64,000 nt of DNA from Zingiber officinale (Eukaryota > Streptophyta > Magnoliopsida > Zingiberales > Zingiberaceae). Positions within the stretch are counted from its first letter, which is position 1. Every line of letters starts with the position of its first letter. The stretch spans positions 130,770,996 through 130,834,995 of the forward strand of contig NC_055990.1 of NCBI RefSeq assembly GCF_018446385.1, written 5' to 3'. The translations under genes and the position numbers were made by a program. Below, piece by piece: positions 24,863 through 64,000 of the stretch. The notes under the pieces were generated by a model, which saw only the letters and a list, made by a program, of their open reading frames with translations, was not told the DNA's origin and did not search any database.

Positions 24863-24940
24863 AAATGGAACATTAATGGACGTCCAAGTATACGCTCATA
24901 CCGTCTAAAATGTATCTCTCGAAATTTTTTCTCAATAGAT
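24863..24940 (-). mobile_element. LINE reverse-transcriptase fragment, distal (C-terminal) piece
   Basis: The minus strand encodes EKKFREIHFRRYERILGRPL, the segment that follows the RNEISREK-type region in plant non-LTR retrotransposon proteins. It is the direct continuation of the piece at 38584-38988; the CACTA element sits between them. The final three bases (24938-24940, GAT) are the CACTA target-site duplication. Confidence 0.8.
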
Positions 24941-25352
24941 CACTACAAAAAAACAGTCTATTAGGGACGACGGTTTGCAACGAATTTAAAATTTGTTCCA
25001 AACTTTCCAACAAAATTTGCAACAAAATAATAAATTGTTCCGAATTAGCAACAAATTTACCAACAAAATAAATTCGTTGCAAATTAGCAACAAAAGATAA
25101 TTTGTCGCTAATTTTGTTGCAAGTTAACAACAAAAAATAAAATTTGTTGCAAATTTTCCAACGGATATTTAGTTCGTTGCAAATTTTGCAACGAATATTT
25201 TGTTCGTTGCAAATTTTTGCAACGAATATTTTATTCGTTGCAAATTTTTGCAATGAATAGTATATCCGTCGCAAAAATAGCAACGAAACTATTATTTGTT
25301 GGAAATTCCCGACAAATATATAATTCATCGCAAGTTTATAGCAAAAATTTGA

Positions 25353-28300
25353 GGGTAGAGTTTCCAACGAATCTTAAATTTGTTGGAAATGTTTCCAACA
25401 AAAAGGCAGATTCGTTGGAAATGTTTCCAACAAATCTGCTAATTCATTGGAGATTTCCAACAAATTTAGGATTCGTTGGAAACATTTCCAACGAATCTGC
25501 CAATTCGTTGGAAATTTCCAACGAATCGTCCAACGAATCGCAGATTCGTTGGAAAGTATGCTATGATTTAAAAACCCGTTTGACCGACCTAGAGACCTCG
25601 GAATCGGATGAAACAAGTTCCTATATGCTCCTCTTGGTCTCCTGATTCTATAGATGACCTCAAATATTTTTTTTTGAATTAAGATAAATTTTTTTCATCA
25701 AGGTCAATTGGATGAATTTGAATTTGATCATAAATGTGTTAGTGTTTTAAATCAAAATGGAGTTTAGTTGAACTTAATGGATTTCAAAAATGATTTTCGA
25801 GTGCTCAGAATGAGGAGAAATCAGTTTGTTGGGGAGCGTAAGGTTCTCGTGTTTATATCCATGAATTAAAAATAATTACGGAGCTAATTTATTTTGATTT
25901 GTGAATTTTTAAACTTAAATTTAATTTTTCAAACACATTGGGAGTTGAAAAAATAAAAGAAAAAATATATAAAGTAAAAAAAATATTTGAGGGCACATAT
26001 GAAGTCAGGATAAATAGAGGAGCACACAGGAACCGGTTTCATCCAATTCGGAGGTCTCTAGGTCGGTCAACCGTGATTTTAAGAATAGGAAGGGTTTCCA
26101 ACGAATATGAAATTCGTTGGAGATTTCCAACAAAATGGCAGATTCGTTGGAAACGTTTCCAATGAATCTGCCAATTCGTTGGAAATTTCCAACGAATCGC
26201 AGATTCGTTGGAAAGTATGCTATGATTTAAAAACCCATTTGACCAACCTAGAGACCTCGGAATCGGATGAAACAAGTTCCTATGTGCTCCTCTTGGTCTC
26301 CTGATTCTATAGATGACCTCAAATATTTTTTTTGAATTAAGATAAATTTTTACATCAAGGTCAATTGGATGAATTCGAATTTGATCATGAATGTGTTAGT
26401 GTTTTAAATCAAAATGGAGTTTAGTTGAACTTGGTGGATTTAAAAAATGATGTTCGAGTGCTCAGAACGAGAGGAAATCAATTTGTTAGGGAGCGTAAGG
26501 TTCTCGTGATTATATCCATGAATTAAAAATAATTACGGAGCTAATTTATTTTGATTTGTGAATTTTTAAACTTAAATTTAATTTTTCAAACACATTGGGG
26601 GTTGAAAAAATAAAATAAAAAATATATAAAGTAAAAAAAAATATTTGAGGGCACATATGAAGTCAGGATAAATAGAGGAGCACATAAGAACCGGTTTCAT
26701 CCAATTCGGAGGTCTCTAGGTCGGTCAACCGTGATTTTAAGAATAGGAAGGGTTTCCAACGAATCTGAAATTCGTTGGAGATTTCCTACAAAATGGCAGA
26801 TTCGTTGGAAACGTTTCCAACGAATCTGCCAATTCGTTGGAAATTTCCAACGAATCGCAGATTCGTTGGAAAGTATGCTATGATTTAAAAACCCATTTGA
26901 CCGACCTAGAGACCTCGGAATAGAATGAAACAAGTTCCTATGTGCTCTTCTTGGTCTCCTGATTCTATAGATGACCTCAAATATTTTTTTTGAATTAAGA
27001 TAAATTTTTTACATCAAGGTCAATTGGATGAATTCGAATTTGATCATGAGTGTGTTAGTGTTTTAAATCAAAATGGAGTTTAGTTGAACTTGGTGGATTT
27101 AAAAAATGATGTTCGAGTGCTCAGAACGAGAGGAAATCAGTTTGTTAGGGAGCATAAGGTTCTCGTGATTATATCCATGAATTAAAAATAATTACGGAGC
27201 TAATTTATTTTGATTTGTGAATTTTTAAACTTAAATTTAATTTTTCAAACACATTGGGAGTTGAAAAAATAAAATAAAAAATATATAAAGTAAAAAAAAT
27301 ATTTGAGGGCACATATGAAGTCAGGATAAATAGAGGAGCACACAGGAACCGGTTTCATCCAATTCGGAGGTCTGTAGGTCGGTCAACCGTGATTTTAAGA
27401 ATAGGAAGAGTTTCCAACGAATATGAAATTCGTTGGAGATTTCCAACAAAATGGCAGATTCGTTGGAAACGTTTCCAACGAATCTGCCAATTCGTTGGAA
27501 ATTTCCAACGAATCGCAGATTCGTTGGAAAGTATGCTATGATTTAAAAACCCATTTGACCGACCTAGAGACCTCGGAATCGGATGAAACAAGTTCCTATG
27601 TGCTCCTCTTGGTCTCCTGATTCTATAGATGACCTCAAATATTTTTTTTGAATTAAGATAAATTTTTACATCAAGGTCAATTGGATGAATTCGAATTTGA
27701 TCATGAATGTGTTAGTGTTTTAAATCAAAATGGAGTTTAGTTGAACTTGGTGGATTTAAAAAATGATGTTCGATTGCTCAGAACGAGAGGAAATCAGTTT
27801 GTTAGGGAGCGTAAGGTTCTCGTGATTATATCCATGAATTAAAAATAATTACGGAGCTAATTTATTTTGATTTGTGAATTTTTAAACTTAAATTTAATTT
27901 TTCAAACACATTGGGGGTTGAAAAAATAAAAGAAAAAATATATAAAGTAAAAAAAATATTTGAGGGCACATATGAAGTCAGGATAAATAGAGGAGCACAT
28001 AAGAACCGGTTTCATCCAATTCGGAGGTCTGTAGGTCGGTCAACCGTGATTTTAAGAATAGGAAGGGTTTCCAACGAATCTAAAATTCGTTGGAGATTTC
28101 CAACAAAATGGCAGATTCGTTGGAAACGTTTCCAACGAATCTGCCAATTCGTTGGAAATTTCCAACGAATCGCAGATTCGTTGGAAAGTATGCTATGATT
28201 TAAAAACCCATTTGACCGACCTAGAGACCTCGGAATCGGATGAAACAAGTTCCTATGTGCTCTTCTTGGTCTCCTGATTCTATAGATGACCTCAAATATT

Positions 28301-30120
28301 TTTTTTGAATTAAGATAAATTTTTTACATCAAGGTCAATTGGATGAATTCGAATTTGATCATGAGTGTGTTAGTGTTTTAAATCAAAATGGAGTTTAGTT
28401 GAACTTGGTGGATTTAAAAAATGATGTTCGAGTGCTCAGAACGAGAGGAAATCAGTTTGTTAGGGAGCATAAGGTTCTCGTGATTATATCCATGAATTAA
28501 AAATAATTACGGAGCTAATTTATTTTGATTTGTGAATTTTTAAACTTAAATTTAATTTTTCAAACACATTGGGAGTTGAAAAAATAAAAGAAAAAATATA
28601 TAAAGTAAAAAAAATATTTGAGGGCACATATGAAGTCAGGATAAATAGAGGAGCACACAGGAACTGGTTTCATCCAATTCGGAGGTCCTAGGTCGGTCAA
28701 CCGTGATTTTAAGAATAGGAAGGGTTTCCAACGAATCTGAAATTCGTTGGAGATTTCCAACAAAATGGCAAATTCGTTGGAAATGTTTCCAACGAATCTG
28801 CCAATTCGTTGGGAATTTCCAACGAATCGCAGATTCGTTGGAAAGTATGCTATGATTTAAAAACCATTTGACCGACCTAGAGACCTCGGAATCGGATGAA
28901 ACAAGTTCCTATGTGCTCCTCTTGGTCTCCTGATTCTATAGATGACCTCAAATATTTTTTTTGAATTAAGATAAATTTTTACATCAAGGTCAATTGGATG
29001 AATTCGAATTTGATCATGAATGTGTTAGTGTTTTAAATCAAAATGGAGTTTAGTTGAACTTGGTGGATTTAAAAAATGATGTTCGAGTGCTCAGAACGAG
29101 AGGAAATCAGTTTGTTAGGGAGCGTAAGGTTCTCGTGATTATATCCATGAATTAAAAATAATTACGGAGCTAATTTATTTTGATTTGTGAATTTTTAAAC
29201 TTAAATTTAATTTTTCAAACACATTGGGGGTTGAAAAAATAAAAGGAAAAATATATAAAGTAAAAAAAATATTTGAGGGCACATATGAAGTCAGGATAAA
29301 TAGAGGAGCACATAAGAACCGGTTTCATCCAATTCGGAGGTCTCTAGGTCGGTCAACCGTGATTTTAAGAATAGGAAGGGTTTCCAACGAATCTGAAATT
29401 CGTTGGAGATTTCCAACAAAATGGCAGATTCGTTGGAAACGTTTCCAACGAATCTGCCAATTCGTTGGAAATTTCCAACGAATCGCATATTCGTTGGAAA
29501 GTATGCTATGATTTAAAAACCCATTTGACCGACCTAGAGACCTCGGAATCGGATGAAACAAGTTCCTATGTGCTCCTCTTGGTCTCCTGATTCTATAGAT
29601 GACCTCAAATATTTTTTTTGAATTAAGAAAAATTTTTTACATCAAGGTCAATTGGATGAATTCGAATTTGATCATGAATGTGTTAGTGTTTTAAATCAAA
29701 ATGGAGTTTAGTTGAACTTGGTGGATTTAAAAAATGATGTTCGAGTGCTCAGAACGAGAGAAAATCAGTTTGTTGGGGAGCGTAAGGTTCTCGTGATTAT
29801 ATCCATGAATTAAAAATAATTACGGAGCTAATTTATTTTGATTTGTGAATTTTTAAACTTAAATTTAATTTTTCCAACACATTGGGGGTTGAAAAAATAA
29901 AAGAAAAAATATATAAAGTGAAAAAAATATTTGAGGGCACATATGAAGTCAGGATAAATAGAGAAGCACACAGGAACCGGTTTCATCCAATTCGGAGGTC
30001 TCTAGGTCGGTCAACCATGATTTTAAGAATAGGAAGGGTTTCCAACGAATCTGAAATTCGTTGGAGATTTCCAACAAAATGGCAGATTCGTTGGAAATCT
30101 CCAACGAATTGTGGATTCGT
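25353..30120. repeat. Tandem array of seven ~657-bp units in the CACTA left arm
   Basis: Landmarks recur every 656-659 bp: GACCTAGAGACCTCGGAAT at about 25588, 26245, 26904, 27562, 28220, 28877 and 29534; and GTTGAAAAAATAAAA at about 25943, 26601, 27260, 27917, 28575, 29230 and 29888. Each unit holds a cluster of the self-complementary core TTGGAAATTTCCAA flanked by CGAA/TTCG, then ~450 bp of AT-rich spacer. Units are nearly identical, so the expansion is recent or homogenised. The frames that appear in each unit on both strands encode the same FVGN/SLEISNES/RWKFPTN strings simply because the motif is palindromic; they are not genes. Confidence 0.95.
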
Positions 30121-30235
30121 TGCGAATATCCAACAAATAATATTTTTGATGGAAATTTGTTGGAAGATCCCTAATTACATATCCTTACCCGGCCCGATTT
30201 CTTCTCCTCACATCTTCTCTTGACCTAATTTTCCT

Positions 30236-31180
30236 TACGGCGGCTGCGGCAATTTTTTCACCTTCTCTGGACTGGTAAGCCACTCTCGTTCTAGCCCTTC
30301 TTTTTTTCCCGTTCTCCCGGCGTCTCCTTTTTTCCCGATCTCACGGCGTCGCCTGGCGGCTCACGGCGTCGCGTGGCCGGTCGCTGTCGCGCCTTGCCAA
30401 TCGCGCCATCATCTGGCCGCGAGCGGCCGCGCCCGGCCGCGACCGGCCGCGACTGGTGCCTGGTCGCGTGTGGCCGTGAGTGGCTGCGAACAGCGGCGAA
30501 TGGCAGCTCACGGCGGTCCCTGGTAGCTCAAGGTGCTGTCTAGCCCCTTGCGCTGGCGCCTGGCCTTAGCGCCGCTGCCTGGCCGCTCTCGCAGCTTCCT
30601 GGTTGCTCTCAACGGCGCTGAGGTTGGCCACTAGCAGCATCCCTATCCACTGTCGGCATAGGATGGCTGATGGTGGCCTCACTTAGCTGTTGTTTGGCGT
30701 TGGTGATCCCGCTGGCGGCGTAGGCTGGCCACTGGTGACTGATGCTGTCCGCCAGCTGCTGATAGCATTGGGTGACCTCTGTTTGTAAACCGACAGATCA
30801 TTGTTTGATGTCAACTAGTTGTTCTCAATCTTGATTGGTCGTGGGCTGTCTGTGCGTTACAGTGGCACAGCTGTCCGGGGGTCAATGCCTTGCCGTTGGG
30901 GCCAAGAATATATTTGATAATTTCTAGACTTTTTTATTTTATTGTAAATTTAATATTATTGTTTTTGCAGGTTTGGATTTGACGTGGCTGGGAGAGACTT
31001 TCGGTTTTATTTACCTTTGTTAGGTATATTTTTTTACACCTGATATTTTAATAATGATTGCATGCTTTTATTTTCCTATATTATATTTTATTTGTAGTTG
31101 TATGTGAGCTAAGTAATATTGACCATTAGTATTTGTGTTCTAGGAGTTTTTATTACTATATTTTATTTGAAACAGGCAAC
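30236..31180 (+). promoter_or_regulatory. GC-rich leader/promoter region of the CACTA transposase gene
   Basis: At 30240-30750 composition flips to CG-rich, with repeated GGCCGCGACCGG-like words, between AT-rich neighbours. Consensus splice sites suggest non-coding leader exons: donor CTG|GTAAGC at about 30278, acceptor TTTTTGCAG near 30969, donor TTAG|GTATAT near 31023 and acceptor GAAACAG at 31176, just before the ATG at 31181. No coding frame is evident. Confidence 0.5.
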
Positions 31181-34100
31181 ATGCAGAATGAAAGAAGTTG
31201 GATGTATAATAAAAATTTACCTGACCGTGGGGGTTTAACTGATGAGTTTATTACTGGGTTGAGACAGTTTTTAAATTTTGCATCTAGTAATGTTGAGTTT
31301 ATGGATGGTAATCAGATACGATGTCCATGCAGAAAGTGTCATAATGGAAAATTTTTACCATCTAATAAAGTTTCAGAGCATCTTTGTAGATTTGGTTTTA
31401 CTCCGAATTACTATAATTGGACATGTCATGGTGAACCATTCATATCTGATGAGGATTGTTATGGACACAACATACAAGTCTCTAGGGATCAAAGTTATTA
31501 TAATCAATTAAATCCATATCAAAGAATGATATTTGATGCAGCGGCTCCGAATTTAATTCCTGAACCACATGGTGCCAGTTCTAGCTGCCCTCCAACAGTT
31601 GAGCAAATGTTTACAACATATGCATCACCATTAGAAGAGGTACAAGTGCCAGGTGTTGATGAAATTGTGAATAATGAAACATATCTTAAATTTCAGGAAG
31701 TGTTAAGTGCTGCAGATGAACCTTTATGGACTGGTTGTGACAAGCATACTAAATTATCATTCACTGCAAGACTGTTGAATATCAAGGCAGAGTCTAATTT
31801 GTCGGAAGATAATTTCAATAAGGTTGTTCAAGCTATTGAAGAGGCATTGCCCCAAGATAATATACTGCCTAATGATTTTTACAGTATGAAAAAACTTACG
31901 AAAGAATTAGGTCTTCCGGTGGAAAGAATTGACGTTTGCAGAGACGGTTGTATGCTATATTGGGGAGATGATGCAGATGCAAATGTTTGTAGATTCTGTA
32001 ATCAAGATAGGTACAAGATCTCTAGAAGGAGTCAACAACGACGTAAATCATACAGTCAGTTATTTTATTTGCCATTAACTCCTAGGTTACAAAGACTTTA
32101 TACATCAAAGACCACTGCTCAACACATGACTTGGCATGCAAATCATCGAACAGAGGAGGGATTAATGTGTCATCCATCAGATGCAGAGGCATGGAAAAAT
32201 TTTGATAGAACATATCCTGAATTTGCGAAGGAGACTCGAAACATTCGGTTAGGTCTTTGTGCTGATGGTTTTGCTCCATTTAGTAAATCAGGAAGACAGT
32301 ATTCTTGTTGGCCAGTTATATTAACTCCATATAATCTTCCACCTGGGATGTGCATGAAAACACCGTATATGTTTTTAACATTAGTTGTGCCTGGCCCGCA
32401 AAATCCAAAGAAGTTAATAGATTTTATATGCAACCACTGATTGCAGAGCTAAAACAACTATGGGATGAAGGGTTTCCTACATATGACGTCCATACTAATC
32501 AGATGTTTGTTATGAAGGCTGCTCTTCTTTGGACCATTAATGACTTTCCAGCTTATGGAATGCTATCTGGTTGGAGTACTGCGGGAATCTTAGGTTGCCC
32601 AATATGTATGGAGAGATCAAAGTCGATCAGATTGAAATATGGAAGAAAGCCGAGTTATTTTGATTGTCATAGGCAATTTTTACCATTAAATCATAATTTC
32701 AGAAGGAATAAAGATGAGTTCACTAGGAATAGAATTGAAAGAACACCTCCGCCATTAAGATTGACAGGTCAAGATATTTGGTATAGAGTGTGTCACTTTC
32801 CATCTGTTATTGAAGAACCACATGGTACAACATATGAATATGGAAGCACTCATAAATGGACTAAGCGGAGTATATTTTGGGATTTACCTTATTGGTATAG
32901 TAATTTAATTCATCATAATCTGGATGTCATGCATATTGAGAAAAATATTTTTGATAATCTCATAAATACAGTGATGGATATTACCGGAAAAACAAAAGAT
33001 AATTTGAATGCAAGAAAAGATATGCGACTAATTTGTAAACGACCCACTCTTGATGTGGATGAAAGTAGTAGGGGACCAAAGCCAAAGACAATTTATACAT
33101 TGAATAAAGAACAGAGACGTGTTGTTTGTGAATGGTTGAAATCATTGAGATTTCCTGATGAGTATGTCTCTAATCTTGGGAGATGCGTCGATATGAAGGA
33201 ATTCAAATTGATTGGTTTGAAAAGTCACGATTGTCATATATTTATGGAAAGACTTATTCCAATTGCTTTTAAGGAACTCTTACCAAATTTTGTATGGGGT
33301 ACAATTACGGAGTTAAGCATTTTCCTTCATGATATTTCCTCAACAGTTTTGAGATATTCACAGATGGAGAAGTTAGAAAGAGACATTCCAATTATTTTGT
33401 GTAATTTAGAAAGAATCTTTCCACCTTCATTTTTTGATTCAATGGAACATCTTTTGGTTCACTTGCCATACGAGGCCAAAGTTGGAGGACCAGTTCATTT
33501 TCGATGGATGTATCCATTTGAAAGGTATATTTTGTTTTATCTTATATACTTCGTTATTAATGCATTGTAAATTTATAACTTTTTTATATATATTCCTCTA
33601 ATACAAATTGTTATATTTCAATCAGATTTTTATATCATTTGAAGAAAAAAGTAAAAAATAAGGCACATGTTGAAGCCTCTATTGTTAATGCATACATTGT
33701 GGAGGAAGTAACAACTTTTGCATTGTATTATTTTGAGCCTCACATTCAGACCAAAAGACGAAGACCTGGAAGAAATGATGAAGGTCCTATTGATCCCAAT
33801 ACGAACATATTCTCAATTTTTAATTATCTTGGTCGACCGAGTGGACAATGTAAGCAAAGATATTTAACTGATCAAGAATGGCGAGCAGCCCAGACATATG
33901 TTTTACTTAATTGTCCAGAAGTATCACCATATTTCGAGTTAGTATATCTTTCCTATTTTTTTTTATCGTAACTTTTTGTTATTATAATTAAATTTTTTAT
34001 GATAGGATTTTTCAAAACTTGTATTCTGATATGCCAACACTAGAGTTTGATCGTTTCTGCGATCAAGAATTTGCACCTTGGTTCAAATCATATGTAAGTA

Positions 34101-34817
34101 ATTTTTACCTTGTATTCTAATTTACCGTATTGGTATAGTATATTTTAACTGAATAACATATTCATTTGAGTTTAGATTTATGATAATCAAGCTCATCTCG
34201 AACATCAAATGTTATTTCATCTATCTTGGGGTCCAAAAGCAATGGTACACACTTGGCCAGCATATTTCATAAATGGATATAATTTTCATACTCAAGAATA
34301 TGGAAAAGGGAAGACTACAATGAATAGTGGGGTATGTGTTCAGTCATCCAATGATGGAGGTGTAAGCACTGATTTTTATGGTCTACTGGATGAAATTATA
34401 GAGATAGAATACCCTGGTCCAGAAATGCGAGTTATCTTATTTATGTGTCGCTGGTTTGATCCTATCAGAGGGATGAAGGTGCATCCATGTTATAATTTGG
34501 TTGAAATAAATCATAAAAGATTATATAAGAGATATGAACCTTTTGTTTTGGCACAACAAGCGATTCAAGTGTTTTATGCTTCATACCCTAGCTTGAAACG
34601 TGATAAAATGGATTGGTGGGCTGTTTGTAAAACTAAAGCACGGAAAAAAATAGAGGAACATTGGGAAGACATTGCATATCAACAAGAGGAGGTTGTAAAT
34701 ACATTTCAGACCGAGGAATATATTATTCCAACATTACGAGATCCCAGCGGAGTAGTGATAAATGTGGATGCCAGTGAATTTCATGAGGTTGATGATAATG
34801 ATGAAGATGATGATGAT

Positions 34818-34848
<31 letters not shown>

Positions 34849-34907
34849 AGGAAGAGGACGAGGACGAGGACGAGGACGAGGAGGACGACGACAACTTTGA
34901 TTTTTAA
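31181..34907 (+). CDS. CACTA transposase (tnp2 / TNPD-like), one frameshift
   Basis: Encodes the element's catalytic protein. Exons 31181-33524, 33626-33937, 34006-34093 and 34176-34907 join in phase with GT-AG introns. Residues ~5-85 are the transposase-associated domain (RCPCRKCHNGKFL). The tnp2 domain follows, with CADGFAPFSKSGRQYSCWPV then DFPAYGMLSGWSTAG and HNLDVMHIEKNIFDN. After it come DUF4218 (LPIAFKELLPNFVWG to PYEAKVGGPVHFRWMYPFE) and DUF4216 (MCRWFDP), then an extended Asp/Glu tail (34790-34895) ending NFDF. The first frame stops at 32438-32440, while homology continues in another frame from about 32425, consistent with loss of one nucleotide in GATTTTATATG at 32420-32430. Otherwise it is full length. 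The break may be a real inactivation or an assembly error in a T run. Confidence 0.9.
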
Positions 34908-35246
34908 CATGTACGATAAGTTTTTTTATATTTAATTTTAATTTGTAAATTTATAAAATTCATAGTTTAATTAATTGTCTACATAATATCTCATTGTTAA
35001 ATTTATATATGTTATATTTGTGCTGTTTTTTGTTCTATAGGTCATTAGAGGTGAGACATTATCACTGCAGATTCTCGCTCTCTGACTTTTATATTATGGA
35101 TATTGTAAGTTTTTCATATTTCTTCAGCAAGCATTAAGTTTTTTATTTCTTTTATTCTAATTTTGATTTTTGGTTGACAGTTTTGACGGGCACGCCATAG
35201 ACGACACCATTCAAGCATTGGCCAGATTGATTCACCATATGATAGG

Positions 35247-36891
35247 ATGGTACCTACGCCCTCCCCTCAGGCAGGACCTTCTCGTGGGCAGTCGCCAGCA
35301 GAACCTTCTCATGGCCAGTCGCCGGCAGGACCCTCACGTCGACTGTCCCCGGCAGGACCTTCACGTGGCCAGTCACCGGCAGGACCTTCATGTGGCCAGT
35401 CACCGGCAGGACCTTCACATGGCCAGTCACCGGCAGGACCTTCACATGGCCAGTCACCGGCAGGACCTTCATGTGGCCAGTCACCGGCAGGACCTTCACA
35501 TGGCCATTCACCTTCCCCACTTGAGTCGCCGATACCTGCCAGACACTCAACCGTTGATATTGCCGACGCTCGACTGCATATAGTCCCTCTTGGAGACTCG
35601 TAAGTATTAAAATTATTATATTTTAACTATCTTAATTATTTAACGTTGTTTATTGTAATTTTATGATAGATTTGAAAATTCAGTAACTGTTGTTCGTGAG
35701 ATTAATCAAATTGTGAATAACTTTTGGAAAGGAGACTCAATGTCATACTCAAGCACTCCAGCACCCACAAAAGAACTCTGGTGGTGCGAGTTTAAGGTAT
35801 AGTTAATTTATTTTATATATAAAACAATTACGTTCATGTATAATCTATTGTTTTTTTCATTTCAGCGATTATTTAGTTGGGACCCTTATTTTGAGATGGA
35901 AGTTAAAAGAATTTTCAAAAAGAAATGTGGTGATCACATTCGGCATGTATTAAACCATGCCAAAAGTACTGGAAAAAAGCCTCCCTTTATCACGACGGAC
36001 AATTGGGTTAGGATCTGCAATTTTTGGCAAACTGATGAGTGCAAAGAAAGGAGTTTGCGGAATAAAATAAATCAAGCTTATAATTCTGGAGACTCACGTG
36101 CAATATATGCAGGAGGATCTATAAATATCGAGGAGCATTCACGTAGATTGGTAAATTTTCAACTCTACAATTAGATTTTTAATATATTTGTTGTTATTAT
36201 ATTATTTCTAATCGTATTATTTTTAGTCTAGGGATTTGGGAAAAGAGCTCGATTTTATAGACACTTTCGTCCGCACTTTTCAAAAAAAAGACAAGACTTG
36301 GAGTGGAGATAGAGCTAGAATAATTAAGGTTTGATTTAATCTTTAATCATAATTTTAACTTAGATTTTATTACTTATCTATTTGCTCTAATTAAGGTTTT
36401 AATTTTTCATAGGAGAGATATGATGAGCTATCATTATCTCAAAGAAGTTCAGGTGATGGTGATAATATTGAGGGATCTGAGCCGTCTGTTAGTAATAATT
36501 TAGATTTATGGTTAGAGGCCAGTGGGGGAGTCAAAGGGGGAAGGATAATAGGTATGGGTTCTATGAGTAGAATCCATAATGTTCCTCGAAGATCTTTATC
36601 TTCTTCTACCCGACCCGCAGTAACGACACAGATTCATAGCTTAACTGAAGAGGTTGACAATTTGAAAGACATAATATCTCAAAGGGATCAGCAAATTTTA
36701 GAAATTCAAAAACAAAATTCACAAAGAGATCTAGATATGGTTGAAATGCGTAAACAGCAAGCCTTTCTTTACAACAATTTCAACAATTTAGATCGGGTTC
36801 AAGCTATATTCCTCCTGGTATTGGTGATGATGCTAATGACGATGATGATGTCGATGATGATGCCGCCGATGATGTTGATGATGATGCATGA
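35247..36891 (+). CDS. Second CACTA protein, Transposase_24-like (TNPA-type), with a repeat-rich N-terminus and a late frame break
   Basis: Exons 35247-35599, 35670-35796, 35866-36150, 36227-36328 and 36413-36891 join in phase. The N-terminus is a Pro/Ser/Gly nonapeptide repeat (SPAGPSHGQ). Exons 2-4 hold the Transposase_24-like domain with RLFSWDPYFEMEVKRIF, WVRICNFW, and a NKINQAYNSGDSRAIYAGG motif. Exon 5 has a coiled-coil stretch (LTEEVDNLKDIISQRDQQIL) typical of the partner protein that binds subterminal repeats. Near 36790 the frame with homology changes: the reading frame so far runs on into a Met-rich tail to 36901, whereas the other frame gives an Asp-rich tail ending at 36891, as relatives have. 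Start is uncertain; splicing from an upstream leader shared with the transposase is possible. Confidence 0.75.
35259..35514 (+). repeat. 27-bp coding minisatellite (nine-residue SPAGPSHGQ repeat)
   Basis: About nine tandem copies of a 27-bp unit (CCGGCAGGACCTTCACATGG plus GCCAGTCA) in frame within the second CACTA gene. Variants RGQ, CGQ and HGQ show point changes between units. The other frames are open across the array only because the unit length is a multiple of three. Confidence 0.9.
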
Positions 36892-38570: not shown

Positions 38571-38583
38571 TTTTTTTGTAGTG

Positions 38584-38988: not shown

Positions 38989-39215
38989 TGATGACTCCTT
39001 TTTCTACTCGCTTAGGCTCCTCTTTCTTAACAAGTCTTCTTCTCTCGTATCGCCTTATGGATATGAGAAAGTAACATAGATTAAAGTTGGGTTGGCTCCT
39101 CCAAGCGGCCCCTCTAATGTTCAAGTAAGTAATTGATGGAGGGAGAGAGAGTAAAAGAAGAAAAAGAACTTAAAGAAGAAAGAGTTGCCTCCGCTAGTTA
39201 GAAACTAAAGGACAT
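38989..39215 (-). repeat. Element X left LTR, outer part
   Basis: Matches the right-hand LTR from its first base (62871) through GGTTGCCTCCGCTAGTTAGAAACT-like sequence. The Tat-like element interrupts it here; the LTR resumes at 49843. Confidence 0.85.
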
Positions 39216-43267: not shown

Positions 43268-43269
43268 TG

Positions 43270-51470: not shown

Positions 51471-52326
51471 TCTAGGGTTTCAATGTTTGATAATATAACA
51501 AGATATGATCAAATTGACTAAGGGTTTTATCCAAACATGACTTGATGTTTGAAAGCTAATGAAGTCTAATTAGGTCAAAGTTGACCAGATGACTAGTAAA
51601 GAGAAGTCTAGTTTGGACCAGATAACTAGCAGAGTAAGTCCTAACTGAAGGTTAGGTAAAGGAAAATCCTATTGAGTAAAGATAGATCCTAGTGAGTGAA
51701 GGCAGGAGGGGAAAGTTCTAATGAGTAAAGCTAGTCCCTAATGAGTGAAGTTAGGTAATAAAGTCCTAATCAGTGAATACAAAAGGTAGAAGTCCTAGTG
51801 AGCGAAGTTAGGTATTGAAGATCCTAAGGAGCAAGCTTTAGGTGGCAAAGGATTGGATACAGTCCAAGCATGAAGCCTAATAAGTCTGGTAGACTTACAG
51901 GAATATAGCTTAGTCCTAAGGGATTGACTCTTATGTGGTAAACTTAGAGGATAAGGTTTGATTTAGATATGACTTCATCCAGATAAGAGTTTATTCAAAT
52001 AAGGATCTGATCCAATTCTATAAAAGGAGATTAAGGCTTTACATTCAAAAAAACCTTTTCTATCTTTCTCTTCATCTCTATCCTCAGACAAACGTGCTAC
52101 GAAGTTTTGTGACAAGGGAAACTCCAAGAAGGGTAAGCTGCGCTGAGGGCTTCCAAATAAGCGACAATAGTTTGTTTGTATTTTCTATTTATAAGTTGTG
52201 ATTAATTGTATATCTTATTTGTGCTTGTACTTTGAACTATAAGATGGGTTTCTCCGCCTCCAAAAAAACTCTAGAAAGGAGACCACTATTGGACTGGAGC
52301 CTCCATGATTAAGTCTTAGACATACT
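51471..52326 (+). mobile_element. LTR-like fragment (element Y) nested in X; host site of the copia insertion
   Basis: Begins near TGTTTGATAATATAAC and carries short repeats of AGTCCTAATGAGTGAAGTTAGG (51640-51830), a TATAAAAGGAG promoter motif at about 52019, a leader and a GTTTCTCCGCCTCC tail. It seems to continue after the copia element at 61991 to about 62154 (AACCAAGTAAATCCTAGGAG, then CACCAATCCTACA). Layout is that of a plant LTR; ends and TSD were not resolved. Confidence 0.45.
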
Positions 52327-54912
52327 TGTTAGAGTGTATACTAAAAGCCTAGCTTTTGGTATAAACATTTATCTAGAAATAAGAATCACATTGGTCAAAT
52401 GTCTACATTTATGATAAATGTAGTTGTTCAATTAATTTATATTGTAGATAACATGGCGTGTGGTGTCACACACGGAGGATCATGTTATCAGTATCTTATA
52501 AATTATAAACAGTAGCTCACGACCATAATGGAAAGGAACAAACCATTGGAAGGTCGTAGTGTAATTAGGTATCAGTTTATCTTGACTGTATAATTACACT
52601 AATGCATTCAGAGTGTATTGAGTAGGACCATTTGAGATCGTTTCTTTTATACTGACTTTATAAAGAAACAAAGACCTCGGTTATTATGGAAGTGTGTGCT
52701 CTTAATCCTAATATAATAACAAGCACATATATTTGATATTTATTTCTTTAATTTATCAATGGGTGAGATTTAGTTCGATAAATCAATAAGCCCGATAAGT
52801 TGGAAAATGGTATCACTTATAGTGTGTGTTGTTGATTATAAAAGGAAACTGTGTCCTAGAGATACTAGGTTGATAATGTCCTCAAGAGGAGCTCATAAGG
52901 ATTGTCATGTTAAACCCTGCAGGTGGACTTAGTCCGACATGATAATAAGGTTGAGTGATACTACTCTTGGACTAAGATATTAATTAAATGAGTTGTCAGT
53001 AACTCACTTAATTAGTGGGCATTCGATATCTTAAACACAGGGAGACTAACACACTCATAATAAGAAGGAGCCCAAAAAATGTAATTTGGGATTGGTGCGG
53101 TAGTTCAATAATAGTTCTCTAGTGGAATGAATTATTATTGATAAAATTAAAGTTGTGTGTTCGGGGCGAACACGGGATGCTTAATTTTATCGGGAGACCA
53201 AAACCAATTCCTCCTCTCGGTCCCTATCGTAGCCTCTTATTTATAGAGTACTATACTCACCTATACCCACCTTCATACCCATGAGAAAGGGGCCGGCCAA
53301 GCTAGCTTGTGGTTCAAGCTAGGCCCAGCCAAGCTGCGTGGCCGGCCCTAGCTTGAACCCAAGCTTAGGTGGCCGACCCCCATTAAATTAAAAAGAATTT
53401 TAATTTTAATTTTTATTATGTGGAAGATATAATTTATTACAGAGAATTAAAATTAAAATATCTCTCTTTAAAAGATCTACAAAAGATTAAAAGAAAGAGA
53501 TTAGATCTCTTTCCTTATTTGTAGATTGGAAAGATATTTTATTTTTTCTCTCTGAAAAATTATTCACATGTTGAAAATTAAAATTATAGAAATTTCTTTT
53601 TATCAACCATGAAGGGATTTTAAAAGGAAATTTTATTTTTTAAAATTTCCAAAGACAAAAAAGGAAGTTTTAATTGTTGATTAAAATTATCCTATTTGCT
53701 CTACATGAGGTGGCCGGCCACATACAATTAATTAGGAAAATTTATTTAATTTTTTCTTAATTAATTGTTGTCAAGGAAAGTTAAGAAAATTTTATTATAA
53801 ATAAATTTCCTTATTTGCCAAAGCCAAGGAATATAAAAGAAGGGGTAGGGGTGCCTTCATGGTGAACAACCTCTATTATTTTTCTCCCTCTTTTCCTTGG
53901 AGTGGTGGCCGGCCCTTCCCTTTCTCTCTTCTCCTCTTGTTGGCCGAAACCTATCTTCTTGGTGGAGCTTTTGTTTGTGGCCGGATCAAGGAAGGAGAAG
54001 AAGGAGAGAAAGCAAGTCTCATCTCTAGCATCCCTTGGAGCATTGGTGGTGGCCGAAATTATTCATCCTTGAAGAAAATTATTGTGGCCGACCATCCTCT
54101 TCCTTTCTTCCTCTTTTGTGGTGGCCGAAACTTATCTCTTGCTTGGAGTTCTTGTGGTGGCCGGATACTACTTGGAGAAGAAGAAGAAGAAGGAGAGAAA
54201 GCTTGTATCCCTTGGAGCTTGGTTGGTGTTTTGTTCTTCGTCCTTGGTGAAGCTTCTTTGTGTTGGCCGAACCTAGCTAGGAGAAGAAGAAGGTGCTTGG
54301 TGGTTTCTCATCTCGGAAGATCGTTGCCCACACAACGTCCGAGGTTAGAAGAGGAATACTGTAGAAGATCAAGAGGTTTTCTACAAGGTATAACTAGTAA
54401 TTTTTCTTTCCGCATCATACTAGTTATTTATGGAAATAATACCAAATACAAGAGGCTTACGATTCTAGAATTTCGAATATATTTTTCGATGTTGTGTTCT
54501 TTTGTTTTTTTTTCCTTATGATTTGATTGTTCTTTTCGGTTAACCTAAAGTTATTTTAGGAAATTAAATATTAGCTTTCTATAAAAGGTTTTGTCTAGTC
54601 GGTGGTGGTTGCTCCCATATCCAAGAAGGCCGTGTGCCTCGCCACGTCAGTACTGGGAACCAATTATGGAAATTAATATTTAATGGAATTAATAACTTAA
54701 GGTGATTTGGGTCGAACGTGTTAAGTTCCGCAGGAGACCCAAGTCAAAACCTAAAAGAACAAATATATTAAGTTTTGGATCAAACGTGTTAAGTTCCGCA
54801 GGCGATCCAAAATTTAATTTAAAAGAACACATGGTAGCTAGGAAAAGGTTCAGACCTTTGTACAAAATTTTTGTACAGTGGAACCTCTAGGTTTTCCGAG
54901 TAGCAACCAACA
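52327..54912 (+). repeat. 5' LTR of the copia element
   Basis: Nearly identical to the 3' LTR, but retains an 80-bp piece (54147-54226) missing there. Contains multiple GGCCGGCC words and a TATAAAAGAAGGGG promoter motif near 53832, upstream of the GGTGCCTTCATGG leader. The open frame at 53859-54521 is within the leader and differs after the indel in the other LTR, so it is not called a gene. Confidence 0.95.
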
Positions 54913-54914
54913 AT

Positions 54915-54926
54915 TGGTATCAGAGC
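54915..54926 (+). other. Primer-binding site of the copia element
   Basis: TGGTATCAGAGC, two bases after the LTR end, is complementary to the 3' end of initiator methionine tRNA. Confidence 0.95.
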
Positions 54927-56870
54927 TAGAGTTTTGCCTCTGTGTATTTGGTATTAGTTTAATTATGCACATGTCATACATAATTTAGGCAGGTTAATAG
55001 TAGGATGTGCTAACTTTGTAGATGCCGGATCCAACTATTATGCCTTTTAGTTATTATGTGTGTGATTGGACCCTTGGACATGTCAAGGGCATTTATATGT
55101 GTGTGCATGATTGTATTATAAAATACAGCAGGAGCTGTATTTAGTTTTATTAGGATTTTTTTTTTGATCTAGATACATGTACATTCCTTTTATGGAATAT
55201 AGGATCAAAAATGTAAAATTCTATTTATGTCGCGGATCGAATCTTGCAAAGCGTGGAACCTTCTAAGGACCAGAGGCGCAGCGGAACTAGGAGCAAGATG
55301 GATGCGACAGCTAGACCCGGTGGCGGTGGCCAAATATGGCAGCAGCTTGGGATGACAACACACGGAGGACAACTAGAGATAAAAGCCATAATAGTTGAAA
55401 ATTAGATTTTCTATTTATTGCTTTTATATTGTGCTGTGTGTGCATGTTGGTTTACATATTTAGTAGGCTAGTATAGTTAAAATTCCTCATTTATAAATAA
55501 TTAAGTGGGAGAGGGATTTTTAAGTAAATCCCATGGTCTCCATTACTGGTTTGTAAGTGATGCAAACAAGCTTGCGCGTTGGCTTTGAGTGCCTTCCTCG
55601 ATAACGGATGAGCTTGTTTGTGGATCACTAGAACATACTTCCAATTTTGGATGACTATAGGAAGTTAATTAAGAGCGTGTGATCTTCCCCAACGGAAGGG
55701 GCATAATCTTATTAATGGACTTAGTGTCAAGTAATGGTATACACTTAGACACATTTAATAGTATCTTCCCCAACGGAGTCACTACTATCACTTGTGTGAC
55801 CAAAGGGAAACCAACTATTGATTTATCATAAAACTAGATTGGCAATATAATAAAATTAATAAACCCCTCTTACAAATGTTTGAATTTGTATACGTCCACA
55901 CTAACGTGGCATACAAGATTCATGGTGTTTGAGGTAATTTTATTTGTCAAAAAGTTATATTGACAAGATAGTCAATGGGTAAAACCCTCCTCTTACAAAT
56001 GATGAATTTGTATACGTCCACACTAACGTGGCATGCAAAATTCACGGTGTTTGAGGTGTTGGTGAATTTAAATAATATTGTTTGAGGAATCAATGTTATT
56101 TTAAATTCAAAGAGTTTTGACCAAATATTTGATCAAAGACAGATCAACTATTAATTTTATTCGTCATAAAGTAAAGTTGACGAGATAATAAAATTAATGA
56201 ATAAAATCTCCTCTTCGATTTTGTATATACAAAATTCATGGAGATTTTAAGGAGTTGATCTTGACCAAATATTTTTGTAATTCTTAGGATGTTTGTCAAT
56301 CCCTAGTAGTTATACTATAGAAAAAGACTTAGTAGTCCCAATTGTAATGATTGGAAATAGGACTTGGACATTAAGGTAGTATCTTCTTAGAACTAAGAAC
56401 AATTTAGGTGTATTTAATTCATTAGTTGAAACATGTCTAGTGGTGTTATCTACCAGAACCTGGAGTGTAGATACAAGATGCCATTAATCATGTCTGTAAT
56501 TCATTGCAGGGTTCCAGGAAACCCGACAACTAAATGAAAGGTAAATCACCGTCCACATGGGCACTACTGTAAAAGTGGTAGCTGTTGCAGTGGGAGATGT
56601 TTATCTTTTGATAAGAATAAAATATGGATTTTAAGTAATTGTCTTTACGTACCAAGTTTAGAAAGAACATGATTTCAGTTTCTAAACTATTATAGATATT
56701 GTGTCTATTTTGATAACAAAGTTGTTATCAAGAAAAATAAGGAAGTTATCTATTCTGGTATGATGGTTGACAATTTATAATCCAATAACTCCCACAATGC
56801 AACAAATGGAAATTAGTAACACATCTTCTAATTTTAAGAGAAAACAACCTTTAGAAATGAAACAATTATA
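54927..56870 (+). pseudogene. Gag-side region of the copia element, not readable
   Basis: No long frame. A ~60-bp segment with TGTATACGTCCACACTAACG and TGGCATRCAARATTCAYGG occurs at about 55887 and 55999, an internal duplication. CTTCCCCAACGGA repeats at 55684 and 55764. Gag protein homology could not be followed. Confidence 0.5.
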
Positions 56871-59400
56871 TCTTTGGCATCTAAAGCTAGGTTATACTTG
56901 AGTAGGGTTCATTGGTAGCTGATGAACTTTTGGGTTCATTAGTAGTGGAAATCTTTCCAACCTGCGAGTCTTACTTGGAAGGAAAATAACCAAGAAGCTT
57001 TTAAGTCCGAGGGGTATGGAGTCAAAGATATGTTGAAAACGGTTCATTCTGATTTGTGTGATCCTATGACTATCCAAACAAGAGGTAGTATTGAATATTT
57101 TGTCTATTTTATAGACAACTATTCAAGATACAAATAAATTTACTTAATGTACCGCAAGACTAAGTACTTTGATTAGTTCAAAGAGTACAAGGTTGATGCG
57201 GAGAAATGTTAAAGTAAAAAGTCACTATGGAAGATCGTAGTGGCAAGTACCTCTTGAGAGATTTTAGGAGTCACTTATCAGTAGTTGGATTTCAATCCCA
57301 ACTAACTGCATCTGGTACACCCCAACAGAATGGTGTAGTAGAAAGAAGGTAAAGGACTCTTATGGAATAATTAGATAGATGATGAGTTATTCAGAAAATT
57401 ACCAAATTTGTTTTAAGGATAAACTCTGAAAACGAAAGTGAACATAGTACCTTCCAAGTTAGAACTCTCTACTCATATAGAATTGCTGAATAGGTGAAAA
57501 CCTATTTTGAAGCATATTCGGATTCAGGAAATCCAGCACATATGTTATAGAGAGACAATGATAAGTTGGATAGGAGTTCACTTGTTTGTAAGTTATCCTA
57601 GATAAACAAAAGTAGGTTTATAGTCTTAAAAATCAGAAGGTCATTGTTAGCATCAATGACTGATTTTTAGAAAAGGACTATATAATGAACCACGTGCTCA
57701 TAAGTAAATTTGTTCTTAAGGAAATAATAAAGGACATGTCTAACCTAGTACCAACTGTACAAGATGAGATACCACAAGAAAACTGCAACACGTATCACAA
57801 ATTATACACAATTGCAGAAAGTGCCTTGTCGTAGTGGGAGGGTTGTTAGGCAACCTAAAAAGATTCATGTTTTGGGAGAGTTTTTGGACTCGATCCCTGG
57901 AGGACATGAACCTGATCTCCGGACATATGACGAAGCACTCCAAGATAAAGATGCAATATCTTGGCAAAGAGTAATGAATAACAGAATTAGAATATATGTA
58001 TTCTAATAAAATTTGGAAGCTTGTAGAACCACCAAATGGTGTAAAAACCTTTGGGTATAAAAAGGTCTATAATAGGAAAAGAGGGATAGACAGGGAGGTA
58101 GAAACCTTCAAAGCAAGGCTTGATGAAAAAGAAAACTTTTTTCACTGGTAGCCATGCTTAAGTCTATCCGGATTCTTTTATCTATTTGGCAAGTGGATGT
58201 CAAGACAGCATTCCTTAATGGAAGTCTTGAAGAAAGCATCCATATAAAGCAACCAGAAGGGTTCATTGCAAAGGTCTAAGAGCATCTTGTGTAAAGCTCA
58301 ATCAGTCTATGGACTGAGGCAAAGCTTCAAGGTCTTGGAACATCCGGTTTATCAAAGTAATTCAGACCTATGGATTTATTTAGTAACCGGGTAAGTCTTG
58401 TGTATACAAAAGGTGTGATGGAAGCGTGGTGGTATTTCTTGTACTATACGTAGATAACATTTTTTGGTAGTTGGAAACAATATCAAAATGTTGTCAGAAG
58501 TAAGGGTATGGTTGTCCAAACAATTCGATATAAAGGACTTGGGAGAATGAATATATTCTTGAGATCAAAGTAATAAGGGATTGCAAGAAAAGAATATTTT
58601 ACTTATCCCAAGCTTCATACATCGGAAAAATCCTTGCTCGTTTTAAAGCATGCAAAACTCCAAGAAAGGTTTCTTATCTTTTCAGGATGGAGTAACTTTA
58701 TCTAAAGATATGTCTCTGTAGACATCAAAGGAGATAAAGGAAATAAAGGCAGTTCTTTATGCTTCGGCTGTCGGAAGCCTAATGAATGCTATGCACGAGA
58801 TAAGAAATTTGTTTTGCCAAGGGCATAGTTGGCAGATATCAAAATAACTCTGGACAAGGACAGTGGACTGCAGTAAAGCATATATTGAAGTACCTTAGAG
58901 GCACTAGAGATTATATGCTAGCTTACAAGGCAGTTAATTTGGTCCTTGTGGGTTGCATGGATTTTGACTTCCAATCGGATAGGGACAATAATAAGTCAAC
59001 CTCAGAGTTTTTGTGTTTACTTTAGGAGGTAAAGTCATAACTATGGAAGAGTGATAAGCATAGGTGTTTTTCTGGACTCCACCATAGAAGCTTAGTATAT
59101 GGCAAGCCTCTGAGGTAGCTATAAAAGCTGAATGACTCAATAATCTCAAGATAGACTTAGATATGATTTATGATTTGTCCAAAGATTATTACAATTTATT
59201 GTAATAATATTGGTGCAGTAGCAAACTCGAAGAAACCATAAGTCTATAAAGGCAAGTAAACACAATAGAGCGCAAGTACCACCCAATACGAGAAATCGTA
59301 TAAACGAGGAGAAGTTGTTGCTGCCTAGATTGCATCAGGTGATGACCTATAGATCCTTCCACCGAGGTCCTTAAGGCAAGAGCTTTTGATGGACATGTTG
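56870..59400 (+). pseudogene. pol: Pol remnants of the copia element (integrase, RT, RNase H)
   Basis: Fragments in changing frames: YLWHLKLGYT (integrase start, ~56870), VHSDLCDPM and YFVYFIDNYSRYK (~57045-57140), LTASGTPQQNGVVERR (~57300), SGRVVRQPKKIHVLGEFLDS (57830-57895), DVKTAFLNGSLEESIHIKQP (RT, ~58198), VVFLVLYVDN (~58431, the YVDD box altered to YVDN) and RNase H segments to about 59330. Many stops and frameshifts. Confidence 0.88.
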
Positions 59401-59466
59401 AAGGGTTAGGAATCAGATGTATGACAGCAGATATAGCAGCTTAGTCTTTTAGTATAAGTGGGAGAT

Positions 59467-61985
59467 TGTTAGAGTGTATACTAAAAGCCTAGCTTTTGGT
59501 ATAAACATTTATCTAGAAATAAGAATCACATTGGTCAAATATCTACATTTATGATAAATGTAGTTGTTCAATTAATTTATATTGTAGATAACATGGTGTG
59601 TGGTGTCACACACAGAGGATCATGTTATCAGTATCTTATAAATTATAAACAGTAGCTCACGACCATAATGGAAAGGAACAAACCATTGGAAGGTCGTAGT
59701 GTAATTAGGTATCAGGTTATCTTGACCGTATAATTACACTAGTACATTCAGAGTGTATTGAGTAGGACCATTTGAGGTCGTTTCTTTTATACTGACTTTA
59801 TAAAGAAACAAAGACCTCGATTATTATGGAAGTGTGTGCTCTTAATCCTAATATAATAACAAGCACATATATTTGATATTTATTTCTTTAATTTATCAAT
59901 GGGTGAGATTTAGTTTGATAAATCAATAAGCCCGATAAGTTGGGAAATGATATCACTTATAGTGTGTGTTGTTGATTATAAAAGGAAACTGTGTCCTAGA
60001 GATACTAGGTTGATAATGTCCTCAAGAGGAGCTCATAAGGATTGTCATGTTAAACCCTGCAGGTGGACTTAGTTCGACATGATAATAAGGTTGAGTGGTA
60101 CTACTCTTGGACTAAGATATTAATTAAATGAGTTGTCAGTAACTCACTTAATTAGTGGGCATTCGATATCTTAAACACAGGGAGACTAACACACTCATAA
60201 TAAGAAGGAGCCCAAAAAATGTAATTTGGGATTGGTGCGGTAGTTCAATAATAGTTCTCTAGTGGAATGAATTATTATTGATAAAATTAAAGTTGTGTGT
60301 TCGGGGCGAACACGGGATGCTTAATTTTATCGGGAAACCAAAACCAATTCCTCCTCTCGGTCCCTATCGTAGCCTCTTATTTATAGAGTACTATACCCAC
60401 ATATACCCACCTTCATACCCATGAGAAAGGGGCCGGCCAAGCTAGCTTGTGGTTCAAGCTAGGGCCGGCCAAGCCTTGGTTCATGGGTGGCCGGCCCTAG
60501 CTTGAACCCAAGCTTAGGTGGCCGACCCCCATTAAATTAAAAAGAATTTTAATTTTAATTTTTATTATGTGGAAGATATAATTTATTACAGATAATTAAA
60601 ATTAAAATATCTCTCTTTAAAAAGATCTACAAAAAGATTAAAAGAAAGAGATTAGATCTCTTTCCTTATTTGTAGATTGGAAAGATATTTTATTTTTTTC
60701 TCTCTGATAAATTATTCACATGTTGAAAATTAAAATTATAGAAATTTCTTTTTATCAACCATGAAGGGATTTTAAAAGGAAATTTTATTTTTTAAAATTT
60801 CCAAAGACAAAAAAGGAAGTTTTAATTGTTGATTAAAATTATCCTATTTGCTCTACATGAGGTGGCCGGCCACATACAATTAATTAGAAAAATTTATTTA
60901 ATTTTTTCTTAATTAATTGTTGTTAAGGAAAGTTAAGGAAATTTTATTATAAATAAATTTTCTTATTTGCCAAAGCCAAGGAATATAAAAGAAGGGGTAG
61001 GGGTGCCTTCATGGTGAACAACCTCTATTATTTTTCTCCCTCTTTTCCTTGGTGTGGTGGTCGGCCCTTCCCTTTCTCTCTTCTCCTCTTGTTGGACGAA
61101 ACCTATCTTCTTGGTGGAGCTTTTGTTTGTGGCCGGATCAAGGAAGGAGAAGAAGGAGAGAAAGCAAGTCTCATCTCTAGCATCCCTTGGAGCATTGGTG
61201 GTGGCCGAAATTATTCATCCTTGAAGAAAATTATTGTGGCCGGCCATCCTCTTCCTTTCTTCCTCTTTTGTGGTGGCCGAAACTTATCTCTTGCTTGGTG
61301 TTTTGTTCTTCGTCCTTGGTGAAGCTTCTTTGTGTTGGCCGAACCTAGCTAGGAGAAGAAGAAGGTGCTTGGTGGTTTCTCATCTCGGAAGATCGTTGCC
61401 CACACAACGTCCGAGGTTAGAAGAGGAATACGGTAGAAGATCAAGAGGTTTTTCTACAAGGTATAACTAGTAATTTTTCTTTTCGCATCATACTAGTTAT
61501 TTATGGAAATAATACCAAATACAAGAGGCTTACGATTCTAGAATTTCGAATATATTTTTTGATGTTGTGTTCTTTTGTTTTTTTTTCCTTGTGATTTGAT
61601 TGTTCTTTTCGGTTAACCTAAAGTTATTTTAGGAAATTAAATATTAGCTTTCTATAAAAGGTTTTGTCTAGTCGGTGGTGGTTGCTCCCATATCCAAGAA
61701 GGCCGTGTGCCTCGCCACGTCAGTACTGGGAACCAATTATGGAAATTAATATTTAATGGAATTAATAACTTAAGGTGATTTGGGTCGAACGTGTTAAGTT
61801 CCGCAGGAGACCCAAGTCAAAACCTAAAAGAACAAATATATTAAGTTTTGGATCAAACGTGTTAAGTTCCGCAGGCGATCCAAAATTTAATTTAAAAGAA
61901 CACATGGTAGCTAGGAAAAGGTTCAGACCTTTGTACAAAATTTTTGTACAGTGGAACCTCTAGGTTTTCCGAGTAGCAACCAACA
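59467..61985 (+). repeat. 3' LTR of the copia element
   Basis: Matches the 5' LTR apart from scattered substitutions, a changed GGCCGGCC-rich stretch near 60460-60500 and an 80-bp deletion after 61296, with TTGG at the junction. Confidence 0.95.
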
Positions 61986-62154
61986 ATACTGACCATGGGG
62001 GGTTGAGAACCAAGTAAATCCTAGGAGTATTATTTTCTTTTTGTTTATTATTATTTCGCTACGTACTAATACTCTGTCGAAAGAACGAACCACAAAAATG
62101 TAACAAAAATTGACAGTTTCATCCCCTCCTTTATTGACGCACACCAATCCTACA

Positions 62155-62870
62155 TATACCTCTTGGAACAGGATAAATGTCATAAAAACAATGTAGCAAA
62201 ATTATCAAAGGAAGAGATAAGTCTTGATTTTAGAGTACTAAATCATTATTGTGCTAGCCCAACTAAAGTGGTTAAAAAGACGCAACACTTGACCCCTTTA
62301 GTATATTGATAAAGCACTACTGTATTTTTCAAATCGGCATAGATGATCATCTGGATCTGACTAATCGTTATATTCCATAACATGGGACATACGAAAATGA
62401 CATGTAAATATTTTCATAAAATCTCTTCAAAAAAGGGGATCTATCGAGCAATCATTCTTTTGGAGGAAAAAAATCTAAACAGGATCTTTCTCTAGTAAAA
62501 TATTGTTAAAATGAGACACCATCGATGACTAAACAATAGGTGTATCAATGATAGGTTGTTTGTCATACCAATATTTAAAAGTAACTCCTCTAGAGCTATG
62601 TGAAATAGGAGTAATTACTAGCGGCCTTTTGGCAGGTAGCATTTCTCTTCCTCCAGATGGACGAGGATTACCCTCAAGTCATTGAGCTTCTTCTAAGATT
62701 GTTGCCACCAAACATGAGATTTTCTTTGTAACCTTGAATCTCGACTACCTTTATTAGGGTTTGGAAACGAAGGTTGGGAAGATCCAACCTCCGACTAATC
62801 ATCCATCTTCGCTTTATTGGATTGAGTCATAGTAACTTTTTGTAAGAGTTTCTCACAGATGACGCCAATT
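62155..62870 (-). pseudogene. gag: Decayed gag of element X and its primer-binding-site region
   Basis: From the right: AATTGGCGTCATCTGTGAG (62870-62852), then a start-like MTQSNKAKMDD near 62830 with stops soon after, then (about 62390-62160) fragments resembling SDPDDHLCRFEKYS and CSKRY in shifting frames. These align in order with the gag of the Tat-like element (TDPDDHLGKFDN, SSRRYQKT). The frame ends at SKRY where element Y begins. Confidence 0.6.
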
Positions 62871-63887
62871 TGATGACTCCTTTTTCAAAATGCTCGGACT
62901 ACTCTTTCTCCGCAAGTCCTCTTCTCTCATATCACCTTGTGGATCTAAGAAAGTAACCCGGAATAAAGTCGGGTCGGCTCCTCTAGCGCAGCCCCTCTAA
63001 TGCTCAAGTCAGTAATTAGTGGAGGGAGAGAAAGTAAAGGAAGAAGAAGAACCTAAAGAAAAAAGGGTTGCCTCCGCTAGTTAGAAACTGAAGACCATCG
63101 TGCATGGAAGCTACTATCTGAGGGGTTTATATAGTTGTTAGAAGAGAATCTTCACGCCACCTACCTTCGAGCCTTTTTACTTCTTCCCTCTTGAGTCGGT
63201 GAAGACGCAGTTTCTAATGATCTGTTACCGTGCTTCCAATCCTTGACTACCATGTAAAGTTAAGAAAGCTTCTAGAGAACCGCTTCTATCACCCATTACT
63301 TATCCCTCATTCACTGATTGCCATATATTATGAGGAAAGAATCATGGAAACCTCCTAAGACATCTATTACTTGCCTTTCCAATATCAATCGCCATGTAAG
63401 ATGGGGAAGGAATCAAAGGAACCACCTCTAACACTTCTCCATTCAACCATCACCACGCATTACTAACTAGAATAAAGAGTCGCTTAATAATATTGCTCTA
63501 TGGACCCTAATATTATTGCCCTATGGAACTTAATGATGCCGCTCTATGGAACTAAGCATTATTGCTCGGCGAACCTCATTAGCACTGTTCTTCGGGACTT
63601 TGGTGATATTGCTCTATGAACCTCTATGCGGTTGCTATGTGGAACTGAGCATTATTGCTCGGTGAGCCTCAATAACATTATTCTGCGAGACTTTGGTGAT
63701 ATTGTTCTACGAACCTCCATGCGGTTGCTCTATGAAAACTTTACATTATTGCTCAGTGGACCTGCGGTCACTCTGCGGAAACTTAACATTATTGCTTTGC
63801 AATATTTATTCAACCCTAGAGCAGGAACTTAGTTATATTGCTCAAAAGAACCTGTTATATCCCTTGGGGTAAATCCGACTACCATCA
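62871..63887 (-). repeat. Element X right LTR (uninterrupted)
   Basis: Starts TGATGACTCCTTTTT and ends ACTACCATCA, followed by the CATAT duplication. It shows what the split left LTR looked like. The 63484-63800 part consists of diverged ~30-bp units (ATTGCTCGGCGAACCTCATT-like). Confidence 0.88.
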
Positions 63888-64000
63888 CATATATTATGTC
63901 TTTATTCTACAAAGCCTAAAACTTTTCTCTTCTAGTATTTTCCACCAAGATTTTAGTTTAGTATTTACTCATTCACGTATTTCATCTACTAAAATAATAT
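63888..64000 (-). mobile_element. LINE reverse-transcriptase fragment, proximal (N-terminal) piece, cut by window edge
   Basis: The minus strand encodes IILVDEIRE, a stop, VNTKLKSWWKILEEKSFRLC and RIKT, the segment just after the RT catalytic ADD box (which would be at the window edge). It continues directly, after one copy of CATAT, into MKFKFSNIRR at 38988 leftward. Confidence 0.8.

Follow-up and report, generated by a model that had tools for sequence, protein, structure and literature searches.

Nests of LTR retrotransposons, in which younger elements lie inside older ones, have been reported from plant genomes; such stacks are common in the larger plant genomes, and LTRs are among the least frequent targets (PMC6911290). 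The locus described here resembles these nests in that younger LTR elements lie inside an older one, and it differs from them in that its base layer is a LINE, a CACTA transposon belongs to the stack, and one of the inserts sits in an LTR (PMC6911290). In the light of those findings, the entry of a Tat-like element into an LTR of another element, here designated X, represents a less common target within a known kind of pairing.

The window, that is, the whole stretch of 64,000 nucleotides of Zingiber officinale DNA that was analysed (NC_055990.1, positions 130,770,996 to 130,834,995), contains three pieces of a decayed LINE separated by this stack. Its gene domains and the kinds of element in it point to plant DNA. 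We hold with great confidence that a single LINE relic was hit by a CACTA element and by X, and that X then took in a Tat-like and a copia element. In this reading, an old LINE copy on the minus strand, with its 3' end near 24665, was hit twice at sites that lie 402 bp apart in the relic, the entry of the CACTA DNA transposon duplicating the 3-bp GAT and that of X the 5-bp CATAT; later, a Tat-lineage Ty3 element entered the left LTR of X, and a copia element its interior. The mechanisms would be those of the families concerned, namely cut-and-paste transposition for CACTA and integrase-based insertion for the LTR elements. The earlier note had described ~39 kb growing from this LINE; the growth stands, at 38.55 kb and through two hits plus two more inside X.

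All three LINE pieces lie on the minus strand. The 3'-most piece, at the left (24665..24940, ~276 bp), begins on the left with what looks like a TTG-type tail and terminates in one of the two GAT copies; the middle piece (38587..38988, 402 bp) ends in one copy of CATAT; and the right piece (63893..64000) contributes 108 bp, with the match still running at the window edge. Together (276 + 402 + 108) they amount to 786 bp in the window, open at the right edge. A left edge at 24863 and a length of ~0.6 kb had been proposed, and both fall short, as the match to an uninterrupted relative extends as far as ~24665. We set the LINE end near this position, ~200 bp to the left of the former edge, because of the nucleotide alignment to the relative's LINE end and because of the TTG-type repeat at ~24665, which aligns to a comparable tail of that relative. 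On the minus strand, the join across the CACTA element reads from RIPS into IEKKFREIHF in frame, and the join across X reads RIKT, a single stop codon at the junction and YMKFKFSN, both as the earlier note had it. Its count of only one stop codon is correct at the X junction and does not extend to the relic as a whole, which is decayed, with several stops and at least two frame changes (within the middle and left pieces). We tentatively take the relic to be a plant LINE of the RTE clade, with which it shares the C-terminal part of a reverse-transcriptase ORF and, probably, a short 3' end with a TTG-type tail. It is set apart by its stops and frameshifts and by its extent of 786 bp; the upstream part, in which RTE elements carry an AP endonuclease, falls outside the window.

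A search using 80 residues of the middle piece as the query identified a single uninterrupted LINE relative, in a record entitled 'Alicyclobacillus fastidiosus plasmid unnamed3' (NZ_CP104070.1, 39,760 bp). This record was the sole match among 72,556 plasmid records; among genome contigs, one of 108 pattern matches was confirmed as a LINE relative, again on the Alicyclobacillus record, and none of the 20 pattern matches among viral contigs was confirmed. Beyond the LINE, the rest of the window gave no nucleotide-level match to NZ_CP104070.1. The record carries an IncFIA replicon and catA1, a T7 promoter (9449-9468) and a loxP site (9786-9819); an SP6 promoter was sought in it and none was found. 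Its LINE is of eukaryotic type, and stretches of 29-40% G+C flank a core of 40-50%. The record looks like plant DNA cloned in a BAC-type vector and is probably a mislabelled contaminant.

The LINE peptide of the relative (L001; 328 residues, stops written as X) was aligned first to the whole window and then to the individual pieces. On this peptide, the right piece occupies positions 61-94, the middle piece 97-125 and 125-230, and the left piece 233-252 and 276-316; their order is preserved, and at either junction no more than two residues of the peptide separate neighbouring pieces. The claim that they once formed a continuous stretch is borne out by this collinearity, measured against one relative only. 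The middle piece was detected by tblastn with an E value of 2e-39 (55% over 113 residues, 38906-38568, the last residues overrunning the junction) and reached a Smith-Waterman score of 353, where shuffles attained 60 at most; near the X junction it is read in another frame, where the score of 45 was reached by 2 of 500 shuffles. For the right piece, the corresponding values were E 1e-5 and a score of 83, with the best of 500 shuffles attaining 46. The left piece is absent from the tblastn matches of the relative's peptide to the window at E values up to 10, and its free Smith-Waterman scores in two frames, 34 and 37, were equalled or exceeded in 22 and 17 of 500 shuffles, respectively.

The pieces were also scored in a fixed register, set by collinearity and picked after the free alignment, against all window positions. 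For the 21-residue and 41-residue segments of the left piece, the segment itself is the sole window position to attain its score (1/127,876 and 1/127,756, respectively), and the same holds for the right piece (1/127,798). Shorter segments were less distinctive: 25 of 127,936 positions score as high as the first 11 residues of the left piece alone, and 37 of 127,930 as high as the 12 residues of the middle piece that adjoin the X junction. At the nucleotide level, region 24500-24940 aligned to the relative's LINE end, including the TTG repeat, with a score of 59, compared with a maximum of 48 for window chunks (0 of 290 reaching 59); one of 200 shuffles reached it. Weak when taken by itself, the left piece owes its placement to the collinear register together with this nucleotide alignment.

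CACTA (En/Spm) transposons possess CACTA ends, a 3-bp target duplication, a tnp2-type transposase and repeats near their ends. The plus-strand element at 24941..38583 (13,643 bp) is similar in all four respects, and it carries about seven units of ~657 bp, 92-97% alike in the window self-blast, as a tandem array at 25417..30155. Its ends and its GAT duplication (24938-24940 / 38584-38586) were found exactly where they had been claimed. From 24941 the left end reads CACTACAAAAAAAC, the inverted copy of which ends at 38583, with the first 14 bases of the terminal inverted repeats identical between the two ends; folded as DNA, the left end forms a stable hairpin (z -3.99). The plus-strand ORFs contain Transposase_21, Transpos_assoc, DUF4218 and DUF4216 domains, the tnp2-type transposase being represented by Transposase_21 in two ORFs (E 5e-35 and 3e-38). 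Given the base composition of the window, chance would yield a 3-bp match with a probability of ~0.019 and a 5-bp match with ~0.0013; GAT and CATAT each lie exactly at the ends of elements that are recognised by their own repeats.

LTR element X (38989..63887, minus strand) spans 24,899 bp, of which ~4.6 kb remain once the two inserts are subtracted. It starts with TGATGACTCC at 38989 and ends in CCATCA at 63887, and its bounds, its TG..CA ends and its CATAT duplication (38984-38988 / 63888-63892) agree exactly with the earlier description. Self-comparison of the window reveals an uninterrupted right LTR (62871..63887) and a left LTR in two parts (38989 to ~39215 and ~49843 to 50647), between which the Tat-like element lies; the right LTR matches 38988-39210 (83%) and 49843-50652 (82%), and around ~63093 it represents the unfilled form of the Tat target. 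The option that X consists of two unrelated solo LTRs is ruled out by the target duplication common to its outer ends.

The interior of X adjoining the right LTR (61991..62870, minus strand) contains a gag relic, of which 26 residues are 77% identical to the gag ORF of the nested Tat element (E 1e-9). When 122 ORFs of at least 30 aa from the X and copia interiors were compared with the Tat element at E values up to 0.05, three matches were obtained, two of which are opposite strands of this gag relic; the third, a copia-interior ORF at E 0.02, was taken as chance. On the minus strand beside the right LTR lies a sequence that resembles a primer-binding site and is similar to its counterpart in the Tat element. 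Reverse transcriptase, RNase H and integrase domains were sought in 12 of the 15 listed X-interior ORFs (of at least 45 aa), and none was found. X is perhaps a shrunken element of the Tat lineage.

The element nested in the left LTR of X is a Ty3/gypsy element (39216..49842, minus strand, 10,627 bp; LTRs 39216-40005 and 49054-49842). Tat LTR retrotransposons are described as carrying a reverse transcriptase, its own RNase H, an added second RNase H and an integrase (PMC5348765), and the window element resembles them in all of these components. On the minus strand, gag, RT (RVT_1), RT_RNaseH_2, RVT_3 and rve follow in this order in separate ORFs, with the second RNase H present (RT_RNaseH_2 45690-46499, RVT_3 44779-45564, rve 44126-45106). 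It is this added RNase H that points to the Tat lineage. The element is unlike Tat elements in that its coding region is broken into several ORFs, the longest stop-free stretch of its interior on the minus strand being 327 codons, and in that it carries a Transposase_28 ORF on the opposite strand. The latter is a 299-codon frame at 40495-41394 (plus strand; 'putative gypsy type transposon', E 1e-6); opposite-strand ORFs of this kind occur in RIRE2/Retand-type elements. A 65-bp tandem repeat of about seven copies is also present inside the element (43273-43730).

The second insert in X is a Ty1/copia element with a decayed interior (52327..61985, plus strand), bounded by LTRs of 2,586 and 2,519 bp (52327-54912 and 59467-61985) and by an exact duplication, ATACT (52322-52326 / 61986-61990). 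Pfam analysis of the X and copia interiors covered 10 ORFs and later 42 of the 51 listed ORFs of at least 45 aa, the nine left out being of 45-49 aa, some of them reaching into an LTR. The first 10 ORFs gave two weak, unrelated matches, both in one ORF; the set of 42 gave RVT_2 in two ORFs and three weak, unrelated families in one ORF each. The two RVT_2 fragments, of copia-type reverse transcriptase, lie in different frames within 57978-58276, one scoring E 1.5e-7 and 31.7 bits (cut-off 31.6) and the other E 0.0016 and 18.6 bits, below the cut-off. An intact polyprotein is absent from the copia element, where the longest stop-free stretch on the plus strand is 85 codons, a length reached by 92 of 300 base shuffles. 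The LTRs are nearly identical, yet reading frames in the interior (54913-59466) are as interrupted as in shuffled sequence.

Divergence between LTR pairs orders three of the four insertions, X, the Tat-like element and copia, CACTA having no such clock. The K2P distances are 0.155 (219 sites) and 0.188 (792 sites) for the two parts of the X LTR, 0.042 (791 sites) for the Tat-like element, and 0.014 (2,506 sites; 93 gap columns in 6 gaps) for copia, where 98.6% of the aligned LTR sites agree. The lower divergence of the two inserts makes them younger than X, in accordance with the nesting. Hence, the claim that the Tat-like element lies in the LTR of X and copia in its interior, which the LTR pairs and the split left LTR support, extends to the claimed sequence of events, since divergence and nesting agree that both entered X later. 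Under a grass rate of 1.3e-8, which we apply for illustration only, the ages would be ~6.0 and 7.2 million years for X, 1.6 for the Tat-like element and 0.5 for copia.

Several alternative readings of the locus must be weighed against this one. The LINE pieces could be separate insertions, or derive from different family members, and lie near each other by chance, a reading to which the strong decay of the left piece and its weak free alignment lend some support; yet all pieces share one strand and keep the order of the relative, with gaps of at most two residues at the junctions, and each junction falls on an element end and a target duplication that were established independently. Three independent insertions are ruled out by the collinear, abutting pieces, and the reading in its wider form is extremely improbable. 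Scarcely more credible is an assembly artefact that joined copies of repeated elements in part of the arrangement. The imperfect target duplication of the Tat-like element would be in keeping with it, whereas the duplications of CACTA, X and copia are exact, the two parts of the left LTR of X join up at a single position when set against the right LTR, and LTR divergence is ordered as the nesting demands.

That same imperfect duplication (GACAT against ACCAT, 3/5) could also be explained if the Tat-like element as found here arose by recombination between two copies, rather than by one simple insertion. This is unlikely, though it deserves more weight than the two preceding readings: LTR divergence of ~4% leaves room for a few changes in the duplication, and, measured against the right LTR, the left LTR of X continues beyond the insert from the point at which it broke off. 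A single LINE relic, interrupted by CACTA and by X, remains our preferred reading. As regards how the LTR elements moved, the loss of open frames in copia, combined with LTRs that are 98.6% identical, implies that the element was probably dead before its last move, or that its LTRs were homogenised. In the former case copia would have moved with a helper, its own pol already dead; the alternative is LTR homogenisation by gene conversion. X, too, would have needed a helper. Helper-dependent movement may then have operated at two levels, in a recent copia with a dead pol and in a shrunken Tat-lineage X whose own LTR was later entered by the same lineage, a proposal for and against which we find the case evenly balanced.

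Outside the stack, a 437-codon open frame on the plus strand (18384-19697) matches Choline_transpo (E 2e-16), and an open frame of 168 residues on the minus strand (22776-23282) is an A20/AN1 zinc-finger frame of the stress-associated-protein type. The first codon of the latter (23282) lies ~1.4 kb from the LINE 3' end, which places the stack upstream of this frame.

The nesting at this locus is genuine, well resolved and ordinary in kind. It changes no general picture, and it offers a clean example of a LINE relic that has been enlarged by 38.55 kb, with inserts ordered by LTR divergence.
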